Below, piece by piece: positions 10,698-36,759 of a stretch of DNA of 64,000 nucleotides (position 1 is its first letter; each line of letters starts with the position of its first letter). Location: NCBI GenBank assembly GCA_012719445.1, contig JAAYAH010000137.1:1-64000 (forward strand). The letters run 5' to 3'. A model generated the notes under the pieces. The model was not told the origin of the DNA, ran no database searches, and worked only from the letters and a program-made list of their open reading frames with translations. The DNA is from Actinomycetales bacterium. Its GTDB lineage: Bacteria; Actinomycetota; Actinomycetes; Actinomycetales; Kineosporiaceae. The position numbers and the translations under genes were made by a program.

Positions 10698-11102
10698 GCG
10701 GGCGTGTCGGCCCTGCGTCGACCCTGTGCCGTCCCCGTGTCGACCCTGTGCCGACCCCGTACCGCCCCCTGTGTCGGCCAGGAGCCCGGGCAGGCAGGGG
10801 GACGGCGTGGCGTGCCCTGGCCCCGCCAGGGCTCCCGTGTCCGCGAGGGGGGTTCGCAGTCCCGGAGGGAGGGAGCCGTCACCGGGCGTGACGGGTGTTT
10901 TCGGTTTGTTCGTGCCGCCAGGGTGGGTCCGTCCCCCCTGATCGGCGCCGGGACCGGTGCTCGGTCCGGTGAACCGGGACCCGATCGGCCCACCCGCGGC
11001 GGATCCCGGGCGACGCGGGGTTCCCGGCACCGGCTACAGATCACCCGTTCGGCATCCGATATCGACGAAGGCGCTCGGAACGTGGCGCCTCGGGAGGTGT
11101 CC
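10698..11102. other. Intergenic region with a 22-bp tandem repeat
   Basis: 405 bases before the PAS-GGDEF gene. At 10717-10738 and 10739-10760 there are two adjacent 22-base copies of GTCGACCCTGTGCCGNCCCC plus GT, differing at one base. The rest is GC-rich sequence without a supported gene. The PAS-GGDEF frame is open across it but composition and lack of RBS argue against coding. Confidence 0.6.
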
Positions 11103-28752: not shown

Positions 28753-31700
28753 TCACATTTGTGACGGAGGGTCACCCTGATGGGGTTTCGCTGCGGAGAG
28801 TAACGGATCGTCACCACGGTGTCGGCCGCTGGGGATCAGCCCGCCGCGAACCGTCGGCGGTCCGTGACGGTCCTCCGGCTCGCGGAGGTCGAGGGACCGG
28901 CCGACGGGCTCGGCGCGGGTCAGCTCGTCGAGCCCGCCGAGGGAGCCGAACCGGACCAGGGAGCCCATCGCCCTCGCCGCGGTGAGCCGCGCGGTCGGCA
29001 CCTCCCGCACCAGCTCCCGCTCGGTCTCGTCGATGAGCTGCCGGGCGAGGCGACCCGGCCGGATCCCCCTCGCCGCAGCCCACCCGTTCCCGGTCGCGAG
29101 GATCCGTGCCCCCGTCTCGCTCCTGCCCGCCCGGTGCTGGGCCACCCCGAGCAGGCAGACCAGTTCGGGCATGCAGATGAGCTGTCCGGTGTCGTGGTGG
29201 AGCTCGACGGCGGTGCGCAGCAGCCCTGCCGCTCGCTCGGCATCGGCCGGTCCCCCGGCCTGGCGCAGGGCGAGCAGGCCCGCGTAGCCGAGGACGACCG
29301 CCCGGTCGGGCAGGGAGTCCGTTGCCCGTGCGGCCCACTCGGCCGCCGCCATCAGTCCCGACGCCCGCTCGGCGTCCCCGCTCTCGTCCGCGGCGAAGGC
29401 GAGGTTGGCGAGCGCGTACCCGAGGTCGTCGTCGGCGTGCTGCCCGGTCGCCCACCGGCGGAATTCCTCGAAGGCCGGCACGGCCCGTTCGACCATGCCC
29501 AGCTCCGCGTGGAGCTCTCCCAGCTCGCTGCCCAGCCAGAACACCCTGGCCTCGTCACCCGCCGCCCTGGCAGCCTCGCGGGCCTCGGTGAGGTCCTCGA
29601 CCGCCGCCTCGATCGCTCCGGTGAAGCGGTGCGCCACCCCTCGCCCGGAGAGGATCCGCGACCTGATCAGGTCATCGCGGAGGTCGTCCGCCTCGCGCAG
29701 CGCGGTGTCGTAGATCCGGCAGGCCGCCCTCGGGTCGCCCCGCTCGAGGCACAGGTGAGCCTCGGAGAGCAGCAGCATGGCCCGGAGATCGGGCGGGACG
29801 ACGGCATCCCGTGCCGGAGGGAGCCAGCGCTCGATGAGGGCCGATCGCCCGGAGAACCACCAGTAGTCGAGCAGCGCGAGCACGAACCGGCTGAGCAGCA
29901 CCCCGTCACCCACGGCGGCGCAGTGGGCCAGCGCAGCGGCGATGTTCCCCGCCTCGTCGTCGAGCAGGAGGCGCTGGGCCAGCCCGGCGGTCCGCCACCC
30001 CGGCCCCAGCTCCTCGGTGAGAGCGGCGTAGTGGTCGGCGTGGCGGTCCCGGATCCGGCGGTCGGCAGCCTCCGGCAGCCCCGCCGCGTACTCCCGCACC
30101 GTCTCCAGCAGGGTCATCCGGGCGGACCCGTCCGAGACGACGAGGCTCCGGTCGACCAGGCGCTCCAGGACGTCGATGACCTCCTCGTCGGAGTCGTCAC
30201 CGGGGTCGCACACCGCCTCGGCCGCCTCGATGGTCCAACCGCCGGCGAACACGGAGAGCTGGGCGAACACCCTCCGCTCCACCGGCCCGAGGAGCTGAGC
30301 GCTCCAGTCGAGGGCCGCGCGCATGCTGCGGTGCCGGTCCGGCAGGTCCCTCGGCCCGCCGGTGAGCAGCCGGAGCCGCCGGTCGACCCGCCGGAGCATC
30401 TGCCCGGGAGGCAGGGTCCGCACCCTGGCCGCGGCGAGCTCCAGCGCCAGCGGCAGGCCGTCGAGCATCCGGATCACCCCGGCGACGTCCGCCGCGTTGT
30501 CCGCGGTGACCTCGAAGCCGGGCAGGACGGCGCGGGCCCGGTCCCGGAACAGCTGGACCGCCTCCGAGCGCAGCACCTCCTCCGGGTCGGTGTCGGTCCC
30601 GGCCTCGGGCAGCGGCAGCGGTGCGAGGTCGAGCACGTGCTCGCCGCGGAGGTGGAGCACGGTCCGGCTGGTCGCGAGCACGGTGAGTCCCTCGACCCGG
30701 TCCAGCAGCGTGGTGAGGTCGTCGAGGACGGCCCCCTGCTCCACGAGCTGTTCCAGGTTGTCGAGGATCAGCAGGACCGGGTGCGCGGAGAGCACCCGGA
30801 TCGCCGTCTCCAACGACGGCTCTCCCGACCAGTCCGCCCCGGTGCGCAGGGCCCGGCAGATCTCGGGCAGCATGTCGGCGGCGTCCCGCACGGCCACCAG
30901 TTGCACGACGACGCTCTCGACCCTGGCCGCGACCTCGAGGGCGAGCCGGGTCTTGCCGGTCCCGCCCGGGCCGACGACGGTGAGCAGCCGGACCTCGGGG
31001 TCGCTCACCAGGCGCAGGGCGTGCGCCAGTTCGTGCCGCCGCCCGACGAGCGACGTCCTCGGGCGGGTGAACGCCGGGTACCACCGGGAACCGTCCCCGG
31101 CCGTCCCGTCCTGTTCCGGTGGCTGCCCTCCGCTCGCCGCGTCGCCCGGGGCGGGATCGCCGGGAGGGGCGGGGCCGTCGTGGGCGGTCGCGGAGCCGAC
31201 CACCGCCGTCCCCGCGGGTGGGGCGGCGAGCGGGATCTCCTGCCGGAGCAGGCGCAGGTGCAGCTCGCGCAGGTGGGGCCCGGGGTCGACACCGAGCTCG
31301 TCGGCCAGTCGTCCGGCGGCCGCTGTGTAGGCGGCGACCGCGTCGGCCTGCCTGCCGCAGCGGTACAGGGTGAGCAGGAGCTGGCCGACCAGCCGCTCGT
31401 CGAGCGGGTGCAGCAGCACCAGCTCCTCCAGCTCCGGCAGCAGCTCCTCGTGCCGGCCGAGAACCGCGTCGGCGTCGATCCGGTCGAGCAGGGTCGCCAG
31501 GCGGGCTGCCTCCAGCCTGGCCAGAATCCCCTCCGCGGCCGGAACCCCCTCCAGCTCGGTCAGGGCGGGACCCCGCCAGAGGGCGAGCGCGGCCCTCAGG
31601 TCCACCGCCGCGGCCGCGACGTCGCCCGCGGCCAGCAGGGCGCGCCCTGAGGCGGCCAGCCGCTCGAACCGGTGCACGTCCACCGCGTCCGGGGCCACGT

Positions 31701-31998
31701 CGAGCAGGTACCCGCCGGGCGCCCGCTGCACCGCGACCGACGGTTCCAATGCTTTCCGTAGTCGGGATGCGACAACCTGTAACGCATTCTCCGGCCGGTC
31801 GGGGAGGGCGGTGTCGTCCCAGAGCACCTCGACGAGCCGCCGGTGCGGGACGACCGACCGCGGTGACAGCGCCAGCAGGGTGAGCAGCCTGCGCACCCGG
31901 GGGCCGCCGACCGGCACCGGGGCGTCGTCGAGGCGCACCTCGAACGGCCCGAGCACCCGGAGGTCGACGCCCGGCGCGACCGGAGGACTGCTCGTCAC
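28753..31998 (-). CDS. AfsR/SARP-type regulator: OmpR HTH-BTAD-NB-ARC-TPR
   Basis: 1081 residues. Residues 12-100 form the OmpR-like winged HTH (VDLRVLGPFEVRLDD, RLLTLLALSPRSVVPHRRLVEVLW). Residues 105-250 are the bacterial transcriptional activation domain (VHRFERLAASG, LYRCGRQADAVAAYTAAAGRL). Residues about 310-620 are a STAND ATPase with Walker A VGPGGTGKTRLALE and Walker B LLILDNLEQL. The remainder is TPR-like (HADHYAALTEELGPGW onward). Such proteins activate secondary-metabolite or stress genes. No biosynthetic gene cluster is adjacent; the divergent neighbour is a micro-ORF segment and an MFS exporter, which are its most likely targets. No clear RBS at the GTG start. Confidence 0.93.
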   Translation of the reverse strand: MTSSPPVAPGVDLRVLGPFEVRLDDAPVPVGGPRVRRLLTLLALSPRSVVPHRRLVEVLWDDTALPDRPENALQVVASRLRKALEPSVAVQRAPGGYLLDVAPDAVDVHRFERLAASGRALLAAGDVAAAAVDLRAALALWRGPALTELEGVPAAEGILARLEAARLATLLDRIDADAVLGRHEELLPELEELVLLHPLDERLVGQLLLTLYRCGRQADAVAAYTAAAGRLADELGVDPGPHLRELHLRLLRQEIPLAAPPAGTAVVGSATAHDGPAPPGDPAPGDAASGGQPPEQDGTAGDGSRWYPAFTRPRTSLVGRRHELAHALRLVSDPEVRLLTVVGPGGTGKTRLALEVAARVESVVVQLVAVRDAADMLPEICRALRTGADWSGEPSLETAIRVLSAHPVLLILDNLEQLVEQGAVLDDLTTLLDRVEGLTVLATSRTVLHLRGEHVLDLAPLPLPEAGTDTDPEEVLRSEAVQLFRDRARAVLPGFEVTADNAADVAGVIRMLDGLPLALELAAARVRTLPPGQMLRRVDRRLRLLTGGPRDLPDRHRSMRAALDWSAQLLGPVERRVFAQLSVFAGGWTIEAAEAVCDPGDDSDEEVIDVLERLVDRSLVVSDGSARMTLLETVREYAAGLPEAADRRIRDRHADHYAALTEELGPGWRTAGLAQRLLLDDEAGNIAAALAHCAAVGDGVLLSRFVLALLDYWWFSGRSALIERWLPPARDAVVPPDLRAMLLLSEAHLCLERGDPRAACRIYDTALREADDLRDDLIRSRILSGRGVAHRFTGAIEAAVEDLTEAREAARAAGDEARVFWLGSELGELHAELGMVERAVPAFEEFRRWATGQHADDDLGYALANLAFAADESGDAERASGLMAAAEWAARATDSLPDRAVVLGYAGLLALRQAGGPADAERAAGLLRTAVELHHDTGQLICMPELVCLLGVAQHRAGRSETGARILATGNGWAAARGIRPGRLARQLIDETERELVREVPTARLTAARAMGSLVRFGSLGGLDELTRAEPVGRSLDLREPEDRHGPPTVRGGLIPSGRHRGDDPLLSAAKPHQGDPPSQM

Positions 31999-32154
31999 GG
32001 CCGAAGGCTAAGGGTTCCCGGCGGATTTCATAACGCCTTCGGCACTCGGATCACGCCTGACAGCGCACGGACAGCGTCCTGAAAGCGGCCGACGGCACAG
32101 TTCTGCCGTGCCCCGGGACGGCCGGGGGACCTGATCCGGAGGGAGGTGGACGAC

Positions 32155-32181
32155 GTGGAGCTGGGACGTAGCTGGGTCTGA
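32155..32181 (+). CDS. Candidate micro-ORF 1, MELGRSWV
   Basis: GTG start, eight codons, TGA. GGAGGGAGG stands 8 bases upstream. The C-terminal half has the only variable positions relative to the second copy. No known family; expression unproven. Confidence 0.4.
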   Translation: MELGRSWV

Positions 32182-32234
32182 CCGGTGGACGACGCGGGAC
32201 CGACAGGGACCTGATCCGGAGGGAGGTGGACGAC

Positions 32235-32261
32235 GTGGAGCTGGGACGCGCCTGGATCTGA
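32235..32261 (+). CDS. Candidate micro-ORF 2, MELGRAWI
   Basis: Second copy of the repeat, 80 bases downstream, with identical SD and start. Relative to copy one, codon 5 is synonymous (CGT to CGC), codon 6 is Ser to Ala and codon 8 Val to Ile. Trp7 is kept. Confidence 0.4.
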   Translation: MELGRAWI

Positions 32262-32359
32262 CCGGTGGACGACGCGGGCCGGGGTGGCCCCGGACGGGCT
32301 GTCCCGTCTCGGGGCCCGGCCGAGGCGCACGGAGCGAGAACACGGGAGGAGGGACGGAG

Positions 32360-32380
32360 ATGCGCGGCAAGCGGTGGTGA
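32360..32380 (+). CDS. Candidate micro-ORF 3, MRGKRW
   Basis: ATG start, six codons, TGA, with GGGAGGAGGG 6-9 bases upstream. Like the other two it is basic and has a Trp at or near the end. It stops 77 bases before the preferred MFS start, or 8 bases before an alternative GTG at 32388. Confidence 0.4.
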   Translation: MRGKRW

Positions 32381-32456
32381 GAGAGCTGTGACGGAACAGA
32401 TGGATGGACGAGGACGGCGACTCGGAGGGGACGCCGACGACGAGGGAGGCGGCACC

Positions 32457-33728
32457 GTGAGCGGACGGCACCTGGCGGAACCGGGGCACAGGACGACCTA
32501 TCGCGAGACCTTCGCCGTCGGTGAGTTCCGATCCATGTTCAGCGCCCAGGTGGTCTCGATGGTCGGCGACCAGGTCGCCGCCGTCTCGCTCGCGGTCCTG
32601 CTCTACGCCAGGAGCCATTCGGCGTTCGTCGCCGGCCTCGGCTACGCCACGGTCTACCTTCCGTGGCTGGTCGGTGGCCCGTTGCTCGCGGCGTGGGCCG
32701 AACGGCTGCCCCCACGCCGGGTTCTGGTCGGCTGCGACCTCGGCCGAGCCGCTCTCATCGGGCTCGCGGCCGTCCCCGGTGTCCCCCTCCCGGTCCTCGG
32801 TGCGCTGGTCTTCCTTGCGGCGATGCTGGCACCCCCGTTCGAGGCGACCTCCTCGGCCCTGCTGCCGCAGGTGCTCGTCGGCGACCGGTACGCCGTCGGC
32901 GCCTCGGCGATCCACGCCCTGCACCAGGCGGCCCAGCTGGTCGGGTTCGTCGCCGGCGGGGCGGCCGTCCTCGTGCTCGGCGCGAACACCGCCCTGCTGC
33001 TGAACGCCGGGTCGTTCGCGGTCTCGGCCGTCTTCCTGCATCGCGGGCTGACGAGCCGCCCCGCGGTCGCCGGGACCGGCCGGAACCGGCTGATCCGGGA
33101 GACCCTGGACGGTCTCCTCATCGTCGCGAGGGACCGGCGGTTGTCCGGGCCGCTGCTGCTCGGGATCGTCGGGGCCGCCTACCTGGTCGTCCCGGAGGCT
33201 GTCGCCGCGCCGTACGCCGCCTCCCTCGGTGCCGGCGCCGGCGGTGTCGGAATGATCATGGCAGCGGCGGCAGGAGGGAGCGTCCTGGGTGCGGTCGTGC
33301 TCGGTCGGCTCGTCCCACCGCTGCTGCGTCGGCGGCTCATGTGGCCGCTCGCCCTGGCCGGCTGCCTGCCCCTGGTGCTGGTGGTCTCCAGGCCGGGGCT
33401 GGGGGTCACCCTCGTCCTGCTCGCCGTCGCCGGGGCGGCGGGGGCGTTCCAGGTCACGGCGAACACGTCGTTCGCCACCGCGGCCCCGCCCGAGGGGAGG
33501 GCGCGGGCCGTCTCCTTCGCGATGGCGGGCATGTGCGCCGGCCAGTCGCTGGCGATCGTCCTGGCCGGGGCCGTGGCGACGGTGATCCCGCCGACGGAGG
33601 TCGTCGCCGGGGCCGCGGTGCTGGGGGCTGTGACCCTGGTCGTGCTGCGGCCGCTGGTCGGGTCGGCACCGGAACCGCGACCCGTCAGTTGGTCAGCCCC
33701 CGGCAGGGCCGCTCTCGATCCGGCGTGA
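32457..33728 (+). CDS. MFS transporter
   Basis: 423 residues from the GTG at 32457, preferred for its GGGAGG RBS; an in-frame GTG at 32388 would add 23 residues. About ten to twelve transmembrane helices. The protein begins YRETFAVGEFRSMFSAQVVSMVGDQVAAVSLAVLLY (cited in part), which with the loop AERLPPRRVLVGCDLGRA identifies a major facilitator of the drug/enterobactin-exporter-like group. It probably exports a small molecule; the substrate is unknown. It lies downstream of the micro-ORFs and divergent from the SARP regulator. Its last 36 bases overlap the convergent gene. Confidence 0.9.
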   Translation: MSGRHLAEPGHRTTYRETFAVGEFRSMFSAQVVSMVGDQVAAVSLAVLLYARSHSAFVAGLGYATVYLPWLVGGPLLAAWAERLPPRRVLVGCDLGRAALIGLAAVPGVPLPVLGALVFLAAMLAPPFEATSSALLPQVLVGDRYAVGASAIHALHQAAQLVGFVAGGAAVLVLGANTALLLNAGSFAVSAVFLHRGLTSRPAVAGTGRNRLIRETLDGLLIVARDRRLSGPLLLGIVGAAYLVVPEAVAAPYAASLGAGAGGVGMIMAAAAGGSVLGAVVLGRLVPPLLRRRLMWPLALAGCLPLVLVVSRPGLGVTLVLLAVAGAAGAFQVTANTSFATAAPPEGRARAVSFAMAGMCAGQSLAIVLAGAVATVIPPTEVVAGAAVLGAVTLVVLRPLVGSAPEPRPVSWSAPGRAALDPA

Positions 33729-35285: not shown

Positions 35286-35747
35286 TCAGGTTTCCGACGG
35301 CGTCGCGAGGTTGTCGAGGATGCGGACCAGGGCACCCTCGAAGGCCTGGATCTCCTCCGCGGAGAACCCCCGGTAGAAGATCGCGGACATCTCCGCCGAG
35401 ACCTCGGTGAAGGTCGTCAGCAACGCGCGGGTGCGCGGGGTGAGCACCACCCGGACCGTGCGCCGGTCGGTGGCCGGGCGGTCACGGCGGACCAGCCCGT
35501 CCGCCTCCAGCCGGTCGAGCATCCGGGTGAGGGTGGACTTCTCCAGCGAGGTGCGCCGGGCGAGGTCGGTGACGGTGACGTCGTCGGCCTGCCACAGGGC
35601 GAACAGGATCCGGCCCTGCCCCGGGTTGAACTCGGCGATGCCGTGCGCTCTCAGCATCCGGCCGAGGACCCGGCGCGAGACGTGGTGGACCCTGCCGAGG
35701 AGGAAGCCGCCCTGCCCTTCGGGAGCTGTCGGGGTCCCCTCGTCCAC
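35286..35747 (-). CDS. MarR-family transcriptional regulator
   Basis: 153 residues from the GTG at 35747, which has AGGAGGTG five bases upstream and begins 8 bases after the nitroreductase stop. Winged-HTH blocks: RILFALWQADDVTVTDLARRTSLEKSTLTRMLDRLEADGLV (cited in part: LARRTSLEKSTLTRML) and the wing DRRTVRVVLTPRTRALL. Expected to repress its own operon and respond to a small ligand. The perfect palindrome at 36538 is the likely operator. Confidence 0.93.
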   Translation of the reverse strand: MDEGTPTAPEGQGGFLLGRVHHVSRRVLGRMLRAHGIAEFNPGQGRILFALWQADDVTVTDLARRTSLEKSTLTRMLDRLEADGLVRRDRPATDRRTVRVVLTPRTRALLTTFTEVSAEMSAIFYRGFSAEEIQAFEGALVRILDNLATPSET

Positions 35748-35755
35748 GGCACCTC

Positions 35756-36526
35756 CTAGCGCTCGGGCCACCAGAACCCGCTGCGGACCAGCCTGTCCTG
35801 GAACTCCTTCACGGTGCCGGTCGGCACCCGGTCGGGGTCGGGCTCGCCGCACCACTGCAGGAAGAACCAGTCGAGGTAGTGGGTGAACTCCCGCCGGTCC
35901 CACAGCCCGGACAGGCCCAGCCGCCGGGCCGGGTCATCGTACGCGGCGACGAGGCCGTCCAACTCCGCGTCGTCCGGGTCGCGATAGGTCTCCCGGTGCA
36001 CGACGGCCTCGACGGGGAGCCGTCCCCCGGCCGGCTGGTCGTCGTCCTCCGGGTACCCGAGCATCAGCGCGATGAGCGGGAACACCGACGTCTCCGGCAG
36101 TCCCAGTTCCCGGTGGACGAGGTCGAGCGGGCGCCGGTGGAGGCCGTTGGTGATCAGCGAGTCGATCCCCAGCGACCGGGCGGCGATGACGGCGGTCTGC
36201 GCGGCCAGCACGGTGTCGACGGTCGCCGTCACGAAACCGATCACGTCGTCGTTGCTGAACCGGTGGCCGAGCCGCTCGGCGAGCAGGGCCTGCCGGCGGA
36301 AGTCGGCACAGAAGACCAGGGCGTGACTGGCCCGGTAGCCGATGAGGGTGTCCATCCGGTCGGTGTCCTGGACGACGACGATCGAGTAGGCCTGGCGGGC
36401 CGAGGAGTTGGCCGCTCTGGTGGCCGCGGTGAGCACGGTGGCCAGGTCCTCCTCGGTGACCTTCCGGTCGGTGAACCCGCCGTGGATCGAGCGCAGCGAG
36501 TGGATGGTGTCCAGGGTCGGGTTCAT
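35756..36526 (-). CDS. Nitroreductase-family FMN oxidoreductase
   Basis: 256 residues from the ATG at 36526 (GGAGGTG upstream). FMN-binding N-terminus IHSLRSIHGGFTDRKVTEEDL, followed by AATRAANSSARQAYSIVVVQ and the C-terminal FPLIALMLGYPEDD typical of nitroreductases. The C-terminus is extended by about 60 residues with many aromatics (YLDWFFLQWCGEPDP). It would reduce nitro- or quinone-like compounds with NAD(P)H. First gene of a two-gene operon with MarR. Confidence 0.9.
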   Translation of the reverse strand: MNPTLDTIHSLRSIHGGFTDRKVTEEDLATVLTAATRAANSSARQAYSIVVVQDTDRMDTLIGYRASHALVFCADFRRQALLAERLGHRFSNDDVIGFVTATVDTVLAAQTAVIAARSLGIDSLITNGLHRRPLDLVHRELGLPETSVFPLIALMLGYPEDDDQPAGGRLPVEAVVHRETYRDPDDAELDGLVAAYDDPARRLGLSGLWDRREFTHYLDWFFLQWCGEPDPDRVPTGTVKEFQDRLVRSGFWWPER

Positions 36527-36537
36527 CGCACACCTCC

Positions 36538-36571
36538 GTATACAACTGTTGTAATAGCAACAGTTGTATAC
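36538..36571. promoter_or_regulatory. Perfect MarR-type operator
   Basis: GTATACAACTGTTG and its exact reverse complement CAACAGTTGTATAC flank six bases (TAATAG). The element begins 12 bases upstream of the nitroreductase start codon, placing it over the RBS and probable promoter of the operon. Confidence 0.85.
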
Positions 36572-36759
36572 CACGATCCGAGGCCGCCGTGGCGTCCGCC
36601 GTTCGGGTCGGTCCGTCGTCGCGGGGCCGGGTCCGCCCGGACGACGTCGGTGCGAGGAGTCGCGGCGGGACCCGTCGCGCGGGAGATGCCCGGAATGCCG
36701 CAGTGGATCGCTACCCTGGGCGCCGTAGTCAAATCGGTACTCTGAGTGAGGAATGCGTC

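Follow-up and report, generated by a model that had tools for sequence, protein, structure and literature searches.

What is the role of a nearly perfectly duplicated unit that carries a very small open reading frame (ORF) and lies between a divergent regulatory gene and an exporter gene? We addressed this question for a locus in a 64,000-nucleotide stretch of DNA (the window) from an Actinomycetales bacterium of the family Kineosporiaceae. The locus has the following features (SD, Shine-Dalgarno sequence):

28753–31998, minus strand: AfsR-like SARP regulator, divergent, with Trans_reg_C, BTAD, AAA/NACHT-like and TPR domains
32126–32198, plus strand: repeat unit 1, 73 nt, SD and micro-ORF (direct-repeat comparison)
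32155–32181, plus strand: micro-ORF 1, GTG start, MELGRSWV, TGA stop
32206–32278, plus strand: repeat unit 2, 73 nt, SD and micro-ORF (direct-repeat comparison)
32235–32261, plus strand: micro-ORF 2, GTG start, MELGRAWI, TGA stop
32278–32327, plus strand: very stable GC hairpin (z -3.1; -37.9 kcal/mol over 50 nt)
32360–32380, plus strand: micro-ORF 3, ATG start, MRGKRW, TGA stop, 3′ of the hairpin
32457–33728, plus strand: MFS exporter, MFS_1 domain, TIGR00900/DHA3-like, below the curated cut-off

A sequence-only reading of the window had described a duplicated 73-bp unit with an SD and an 8-codon ORF, located between a SARP regulator and an MFS exporter, and our analysis agrees. The two 73-nt copies are 95% identical with a start-to-start distance of 80 nt, and a search of the organism's own genome matched the unit at two places, both at the window locus. 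The copies differ at four bases (32169, 32170, 32171 and 32176 in copy 1 numbering), three of them adjacent, and all four lie within the last codons of the ORF, as had been noted; one difference is synonymous (CGT/CGC), and the rest change Ser to Ala and Val to Ile. Pfam domains confirm the flanking genes as an MFS exporter (MFS_1) and a SARP regulator (Trans_reg_C/BTAD), the latter classed as AfsR-like by NCBIfam with a score below cut-off. The window sequence also confirms that each of the three micro-ORFs has an SD (GGAGGTG 5′ of both GTG starts, AGGAGG 5′ of the ATG of MRGKRW) and has Trp as its last or next-to-last residue. By contrast, the earlier description of all three as basic fails for MELGRSWV and MELGRAWI, each with one Glu and one Arg. 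The hairpin, a feature that the sequence-only reading did not mention, lies 16 nt past micro-ORF 2 and ahead of MRGKRW. It lacks a T-tract, a scan for U-tract terminators was negative, and an Rfam search of positions 31900–32600 gave a single match (E 0.45), under its gathering score. Besides GTG 32457, the MFS gene has an alternative start codon, GTG 32388, 7 bases from the stop codon of MRGKRW. Downstream of the MFS gene, a MarR-type regulator gene and a nitroreductase-family gene lie side by side (35289–36574, minus strand).

The sequence-only reading proposed a search of related genomes for SD-preceded short ORFs beside orthologous MFS and SARP genes. In an MFS search of 98 genomes, the best matches came from six genomes that belong to a second genus of the family (g3), with 55–57% identity over the N-terminal half, and each of them contained such an ORF. 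Upstream, 6/6 genomes retain the start of a divergently oriented SARP gene, which was called as a gene in 5/6; among the genes called, the SARP-MFS pair is all that the window and g3 have in common. A single micro-ORF follows GGAGGTG, encoding MRGQTWG in five genomes and MRGSTWG in one, and none of the orthologous regions has a broken start or frame, the finding that would have refuted the sequence-only reading: the SD, start, frame, Trp and stop are conserved in 6/6. The start codon is ATG in five genomes and GTG in one, the SD-start spacer has two lengths, and the flanks have diverged. Three blocks are conserved in the alignment of the six regions. The first is promoter-like and contains CGTTC repeats, the second extends from the SD through the stop codon, and the third is a terminator-like hairpin with TTTT after it in 5/6; the stretch from stop codon to hairpin varies in both content and length (39–98 nt). 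The start codon swap, the spacer lengths and the SD-to-stop block together match the prediction of selection on translation. The hairpin block (up to 3 mismatches) was found once per g3 genome and was absent from seven other genomes of the family that we searched, and a strict pattern built on the g3 ORF matched none of 394 order- and class-level genomes. When g3 transcripts are truncated 5′ of the right hairpin arm, the SD region pairs with the left arm over 7–9 pairs in 4/6 genomes, with three pairs in G008 and none in G006, although G-/C-rich stretches pair easily; such pairing, before the right arm is made, would form an antiterminator. Separately, g3 loci (L093–L098) have a hairpin directly 5′ of the micro-ORF SD that differs in sequence and is possibly covarying, with arms GTCGTC...GACGAC, or CATC...GATG in G002 and G006. 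The g3 MFS proteins have long N-terminal extensions and align to the window MFS mostly as two halves with an extra stretch between them.

We also searched 394 genomes at the class level for MFS relatives and scanned 97 regions upstream of them. An initial scan of 33 upstream regions found only three Trp-containing micro-ORFs, because few members of the right MFS clade were included. The 97-region scan yielded one micro-ORF before the MFS gene in G229 and four tandem ORFs in G401, encoding MRIRRDIIWQ, MRVRHDLIWT, MRIRRDIVWT and MRIRRDVIWN. Using the G401 MFS, we searched 150 and then 297 genomes of its family (f35), a sample of a larger group, and obtained 26 MFS matches at E 1e-98 or better in 24/297 genomes. 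The arrangement recurs in f35, where leaders of MFS genes contain one to eight tandem micro-ORFs or a single ORF with up to five internal repeats. Eight tandem ORFs occur in G622 (MRTTDWL, MRGSEWE, MRGHDWT, MRGFDWN, MRDFDWS, MRGNEWM, MRGNEWG and MRGSDWH), five in G633 and three in G488; the longest array, with eight ORFs, spans about 530 nt, and ORFs within arrays are spaced 59–136 nt apart, with one spacing of 200 nt. The multi-repeat leader ORFs contain an APDxxWx unit up to five times, and G680 has a single leader ORF with internal repeats, MRRMPAAPDNGWSAPDQGWSAPDTSWGAPDSGWAAPDNGWT. A third family (f25) is represented by G102, in which MPHNKIWT precedes the MFS gene. In the leader ORF of L182 (G577), the last repeat ends with TGA where G541 has TGG, such that the last Trp is lost. 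We took MRVRRSTAWA in G567 to be a chance match, its neighbours resembling two-component and methyltransferase genes.

To quantify the association, we scanned up to 700 nt upstream of MFS genes for SD-preceded ORFs of 5–30 codons with Trp as the last or next-to-last residue. Among the 26 f35 matches (set A), which were picked by MFS similarity to G401, whose array we had already seen, 29/40 SD-preceded ORFs were Trp-ended, at 16/26 loci, against a shuffled mean of 0.3. For the window and g3 (set B, which thus includes the window itself), 10/10 SD-preceded ORFs ended in W or Wx, at 7/7 loci, against a shuffled mean of 0.1. In 99 other MFS relatives (set C), 19 loci matched, and 2/99 remained after removal of 17 gene-end matches; we set these 17 aside because they read as the 3′ end of a metallopeptidase-like neighbouring gene (HEIAHHFGI...). 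At least 18 MFS relatives (the 17 from set C and L184) lie just downstream of a gene ending HEIAHHFGI.D.RL.ELGW, apparently encoding a metallopeptidase, and this gene is another recurrent neighbour of the exporter family (L085, L184, L186, L190 and other loci). On a tree of the MFS proteins, loci with Trp-ORFs cluster, requiring 6 changes compared to a shuffled mean of 21.7, with none of 500 shuffles as low. Midpoint rooting does not place the window/g3 and f35 clades as sisters; hence, a single origin with losses and several gains are both possible.

A curated list of 50 ORFs from 27 loci, some of them spotted by eye, revealed a common pattern. These ORFs start with ATG (43) or GTG (7) and stop with TGA (36), TAG (7) or TAA (7); Arg is the second residue in 42/50, and Trp is penultimate in 46, last in 3 and further in for 1. 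The residue three positions before Trp (n = 69 Trp) is D in 31 cases, G in 22, E in 3 and another residue in 13, i.e. D or G in 53/69. From these counts, we derive a common core of (D/G)-x-x-W-x, which GRSWV, GRAWI and GKRW from the window and GQTWG from g3 also fit. Adjacent Trp codons occur in 0/50 ORFs. In the G622 array, M, R and W are fixed, and the last residue differs in all 28 ORF pairs (eight residues in eight ORFs). The earlier suggestion of conserved parts combined with a variable part, made for the window, thus generalises well to the curated ORFs and the G622 array. A loose MxGxxW pattern gave 118 matches in 13 genomes of the family compared to 89 for a reversed-pattern control, indicating that MxGxxW by itself is unspecific and that its place before the MFS gene is the specific part.

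We measured the best 50-nt fold within 200 nt before the MFS match, or, for g3, in a 250-nt stretch further upstream because of the long N-terminal extension. Hairpins were strongest at the 18 set A loci that we labelled positive (median -33.4 kcal/mol, z -4.0), which include G577 and G393, the latter with a Trp-less MFS leader. Values were intermediate for the seven window and g3 loci (-29.8 kcal/mol, z -2.2) and for the eight remaining set A loci (-28.1 kcal/mol, z -2.4), two of which (G680 and G474) later showed W-ORFs, and weakest for 99 controls (-22.5 kcal/mol, z 0.1). Folds at -30 kcal/mol or below were found at 15/18, 2/7, 3/8 and 14/99 of these loci, respectively. The positives combined with the window and g3 (25 loci) differed from the 99 controls with p = 6e-11 on z and 2.9e-9 on energy. 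Across 19 loci, 4 to 178 nt separate the last ORF from the hairpin, and at least four T in the 8 bases after the hairpin were found at 1 of 19 loci, the window being among those with none; in g3 the corresponding figure for TTTT is the 5/6 given above. RNA directly past the ORF stop codons was hardly more folded than shuffled sequence (mean z -0.42, s.e.m. 0.18), indicating that the hairpin is not tied to each ORF. A hairpin after every ORF of an array was suggestive in G633, and we rejected it as a general feature of the curated ORFs.

AfsR-like SARP genes are frequent near these exporters: divergent beside the MFS gene in the window, g3, G541, G577 and G498, co-directional upstream of it in G622, G706 and G656, and within a few genes of it in G393, G229 and the second G686 locus. 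Domains were verified for the window, G393, G229, G622 and G541, and a SARP homologue is present in 9/20 f35 stretches with neighbours called. AraC-type regulators lie near the MFS gene in G488 and G229 (by domains) and in G393 and G700 (by similarity). Neither a SARP nor an AraC-type gene lies next to the MFS gene in G401, G594, G633 or the first G686 locus; G401 has a TetR gene ~4 kb upstream. Among the sampled neighbours scanned with Pfam, we found no peptide-modifying enzyme, protease, P450 or MccB-type domain. Close relatives have more genes in common with one another; beyond them, the only common genes that we saw are the MFS gene, broad families (response regulators, sigma factor, dehydrogenases, DUF885) and, at some loci, the SARP or AraC-type regulator. 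In G541 (L203, 10658–11341, by Pfam) and G498 (L209, by similarity), the MFS gene is followed by one for a pentapeptide-repeat protein. Such proteins are known from resistance to gyrase poisons, which hints that the pump substrate is possibly non-ribosomal.

Taken together, these data define a recurrent actinobacterial cassette that consists of a regulator (often an AfsR-like SARP), one or more SD-preceded (D/G)-x-x-W-x-stop micro-ORFs, a strong hairpin and a DHA3-like MFS gene. The micro-ORFs are conserved and, judged from how they are conserved, almost certainly translated mini-genes; those in the window are real, since similar ones, up to eight in a row, precede related actinobacterial pumps. 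It would take a recent neutral duplication in a G-rich leader, with SDs arising by chance, for the window ORFs to be functionless. Such an event would fit the observation that the repeat is matched only here in its own genome, and the three adjacent differences could reflect a single event; however, the ORFs are conserved in two genera, recur in another family and are far more frequent than in shuffles and controls, which makes this explanation very unlikely, the least credible of those that we considered.

Several loci bear on what the mini-genes do. G706 and G656 both encode MRDIIWN, with one synonymous change between them and with differing flanks. In G498, the MFS is 93–96% identical to that of its relatives, and the micro-ORF and hairpin are missing together as one piece. 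G689, which branches outside G498, also seems leaderless, so either loss or gain of the block is possible; either way, the MFS gene is kept without the ORF-hairpin block, and the block comes or goes whole. In G393, the MFS leader ORF (MLKGYVRV) contains no Trp, and an array encoding MRIRREIEWG, MRIRRDVVWG and MRIRRDIEWG lies downstream of the MFS gene (L207, reverse-complement coordinates 10835–11090) with its own terminator and ATTTT, followed by a 111-aa ORF with no Pfam match and then by the transporter gene CstA. By-eye reading identified an operator-like stretch, GCGATNGTCGCA, common to the G393 downstream array, the G393 MFS leader and the G229 leader. No other single observation weighs as heavily as the G393 array against a leader role confined to the MFS gene; nonetheless, the array precedes the 111-aa ORF/CstA operon and could therefore be the leader of that operon. 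Outside MFS leaders, 28 regions (576 kb) contained only the G393 array and 9 scattered single W-ORFs.

The mechanism that we prefer, at slightly less than even odds, is a leader that senses the ribosome and controls the exporter, comparable to Mef(E)L upstream of mef(E). In this model, a ribosome-binding drug or another translation stress would slow the ribosome on the (D/G)xxW stretch; with the leader occupied by a ribosome, RNA polymerase would read through the hairpin or evade Rho, allowing synthesis of the exporter. Several ORFs on one leader, mostly 60–140 nt apart, would act as several road-blocks. The spacing of ORFs in the arrays may fit the free-RNA stretch needed by Rho. In the window, the two repeat ORFs precede the hairpin, and MRGKRW, past the hairpin, could couple translation to GTG 32388. 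The model is favoured by the position before the exporter, by the hairpin and by the joint loss or gain of ORF and hairpin. Further support comes from the g3 ORF conserved in 6/6 genomes, the excess of W-ORF loci over controls, the TTTT after the g3 hairpin in 5/6 and the MRDIIWN common to G706 and G656. Several observations argue against it, among them the variable hairpin gap, the scarcity of T-tracts, the near-absence of extra folding directly past the ORF stops, the G393 array and the pentapeptide-repeat genes. In addition, eight ORFs over about 530 nt misfit a single stalled ribosome steering a single hairpin; a strong hairpin is not exclusive to these loci, given the 14/99 controls at -30 kcal/mol; and the R/K-x-R/K motif of macrolide-type leaders is present in 14/50 ORFs only, including MRGKRW but neither MELGRSWV nor MELGRAWI.

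Array size, variation of the hairpin gap (4–178 nt), missing T-tracts and the G393 array instead favour peptides that act in trans. In this main rival explanation, the micro-ORFs would be real peptide genes on an abundant short RNA with its 3′ end at the hairpin, their many (D/G)xxWx products serving as a signal, an antibiotic or a resistance peptide that cleanses ribosomes; some may exit via the MFS protein, which would be made by read-through. Multi-copy arrays and multi-repeat ORFs, with APDxxWx up to five times, suit this explanation, as do variable positions between fixed ones, culminating in the eight different last residues of the eight G622 ORFs, and the three-ORF G393 array, which lies outside any MFS leader and has both a terminator of its own and the shared GCGATNGTCGCA. 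The position of the hairpin is likewise reminiscent of bacteriocin operons, in which a hairpin lies between the small gene and the exporter. Yet no protease or modifying enzyme was detected among the sampled neighbours scanned with Pfam, the G393 array could be the leader of its own downstream operon, the 576 kb (28 regions) outside leaders yielded little else, and the MFS gene is kept where the ORFs are missing (G498, and 97/99 controls with none in the scan). We regard it as possible, but rather doubtful, that the arrays represent a gene class of very short tandem peptides (about 6–10 codons) that are diversified, unmodified and trans-acting. In that proposal, which is speculative as a whole, the peptides would be exported by the DHA3-like MFS, would act as signals for the SARP or AraC-type regulator, or would remove a drug from ribosomes, and the intervening hairpin would cause their expression in excess of the exporter. 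The sequence-only reading had proposed export by the neighbouring MFS protein; the array located outside an MFS leader favours such export, whereas MFS relatives without such ORFs oppose a peptide as the sole cargo.

Plain Trp-codon attenuation and enzyme-modified peptides are less likely than either a leader or a trans-acting or exported peptide. In classical attenuation, scarcity of charged tRNA-Trp, caused by starvation or by a TrpRS inhibitor such as indolmycin, would stall the ribosome at UGG and open the exporter gene. UGG is the last or next-to-last codon in 49/50 ORFs, tandem ORFs and internal repeats raise the number of Trp codons, and attenuators are described upstream of Streptomyces trp operons and trpS2 (PMC1262725). 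Nevertheless, adjacent Trp codons are absent from all 50 ORFs, Arg at position 2 (42/50) and D/G at -3 (53/69) are conserved though expected to be free to drift, and the G393 MFS leader MLKGYVRV has no Trp, such that the earlier suggestion of a classical Trp-sensing leader is unsupported and the explanation is unlikely. A second earlier suggestion, that the ORFs encode minimal RiPP precursors, would involve modifying enzymes encoded elsewhere in the genome. Their size and conserved aromatic residue resemble those of minimal precursors such as the biarylitides (PMC13417212). However, biarylitides are made by dedicated P450 enzymes and none was seen in the sampled neighbours; besides the MFS gene, the broad families and the SARP or AraC-type regulators at some loci, we saw no gene common beyond close relatives. 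Because no such enzymes appeared among the neighbours scanned, we consider both RiPP and microcin-type readings less likely, the former to the point of being very improbable.

ORFs of 6–10 codons are below usual gene-calling limits, so arrays of this kind would go unannotated, and our searches of open-licence PMC papers showed no description of such micro-ORF arrays. If the micro-ORFs are sensors, their leaders would have many sensing ORFs in tandem, where one or two are usual, and a new motif, and the stress or drug answered by the pump could be named with reporters. If instead they encode peptides, they would rank among the smallest tandem genes, and a list of predicted masses is already at hand. 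Under either reading, genomes can be searched directly with the motif and the cassette, and the start codons offer a simple test.

The micro-ORFs share individual features with several known systems. The operon of mccA, the gene for the microcin C precursor, includes an exporter. mccA has seven codons and a strong SD, and MccA needs a C-terminal Asn and MccB (PMC6495379); our ORFs are likewise tiny genes with a strong SD and an exporter alongside, but their last residue varies and the sampled neighbours encode no MccB-type domain. Biarylitide precursors, with five residues encoded by an 18-bp gene (PMC13417212), match the ORFs in minimal gene size and differ in having dedicated P450 enzymes and a different motif. 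The trp leaders of Streptomyces and Corynebacterium, which contain double or triple UGG and poly-U terminators and precede Trp metabolism genes (PMC1262725), have in common with our loci a UGG-containing leader ORF before a GC-rich terminator, or a candidate terminator in our loci; here, by contrast, UGG codons are non-adjacent and the gene encodes an exporter. For tandem arrangements, the nearest cases that we found are the leaders of ermB, with two leader peptides (PMC8274638), and mgtCBR, with two short ORFs (PMC3641672). The toiL ORF upstream of topAI in E. coli has eight codons, senses several antibiotics and works with Rho, and an actinobacterial whiB7 uORF is mentioned in the same paper (PMC12121999). 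Both resemble our micro-ORFs as very short ORFs upstream of a stress-related gene; toiL, however, is a single ORF in an RBS-covering hairpin, and the passages on toiL describe no counterpart of the arrays and Trp core. The mef(E) gene encodes a macrolide efflux pump and is preceded by a leader peptide, MTASMRLR, and a terminator (PMC4335068). In the mef(E)-mel attenuator of Streptococcus, as in our cassette, an efflux pump gene is preceded by a short leader ORF and a hairpin, and the MFS of L165 weakly matches the NCBIfam Mef(A) MFS model. mef(E) has one leader, a Rho-independent terminator and a macrolide inducer, whereas the actinobacterial loci have one to eight (D/G)xxWx ORFs, mostly no T-tract and, unlike mef(E)L, often a SARP or AraC-type regulator nearby. 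By analogy, the nearest precedents would be mef(E) for the leader and toiL for breadth and the involvement of Rho.
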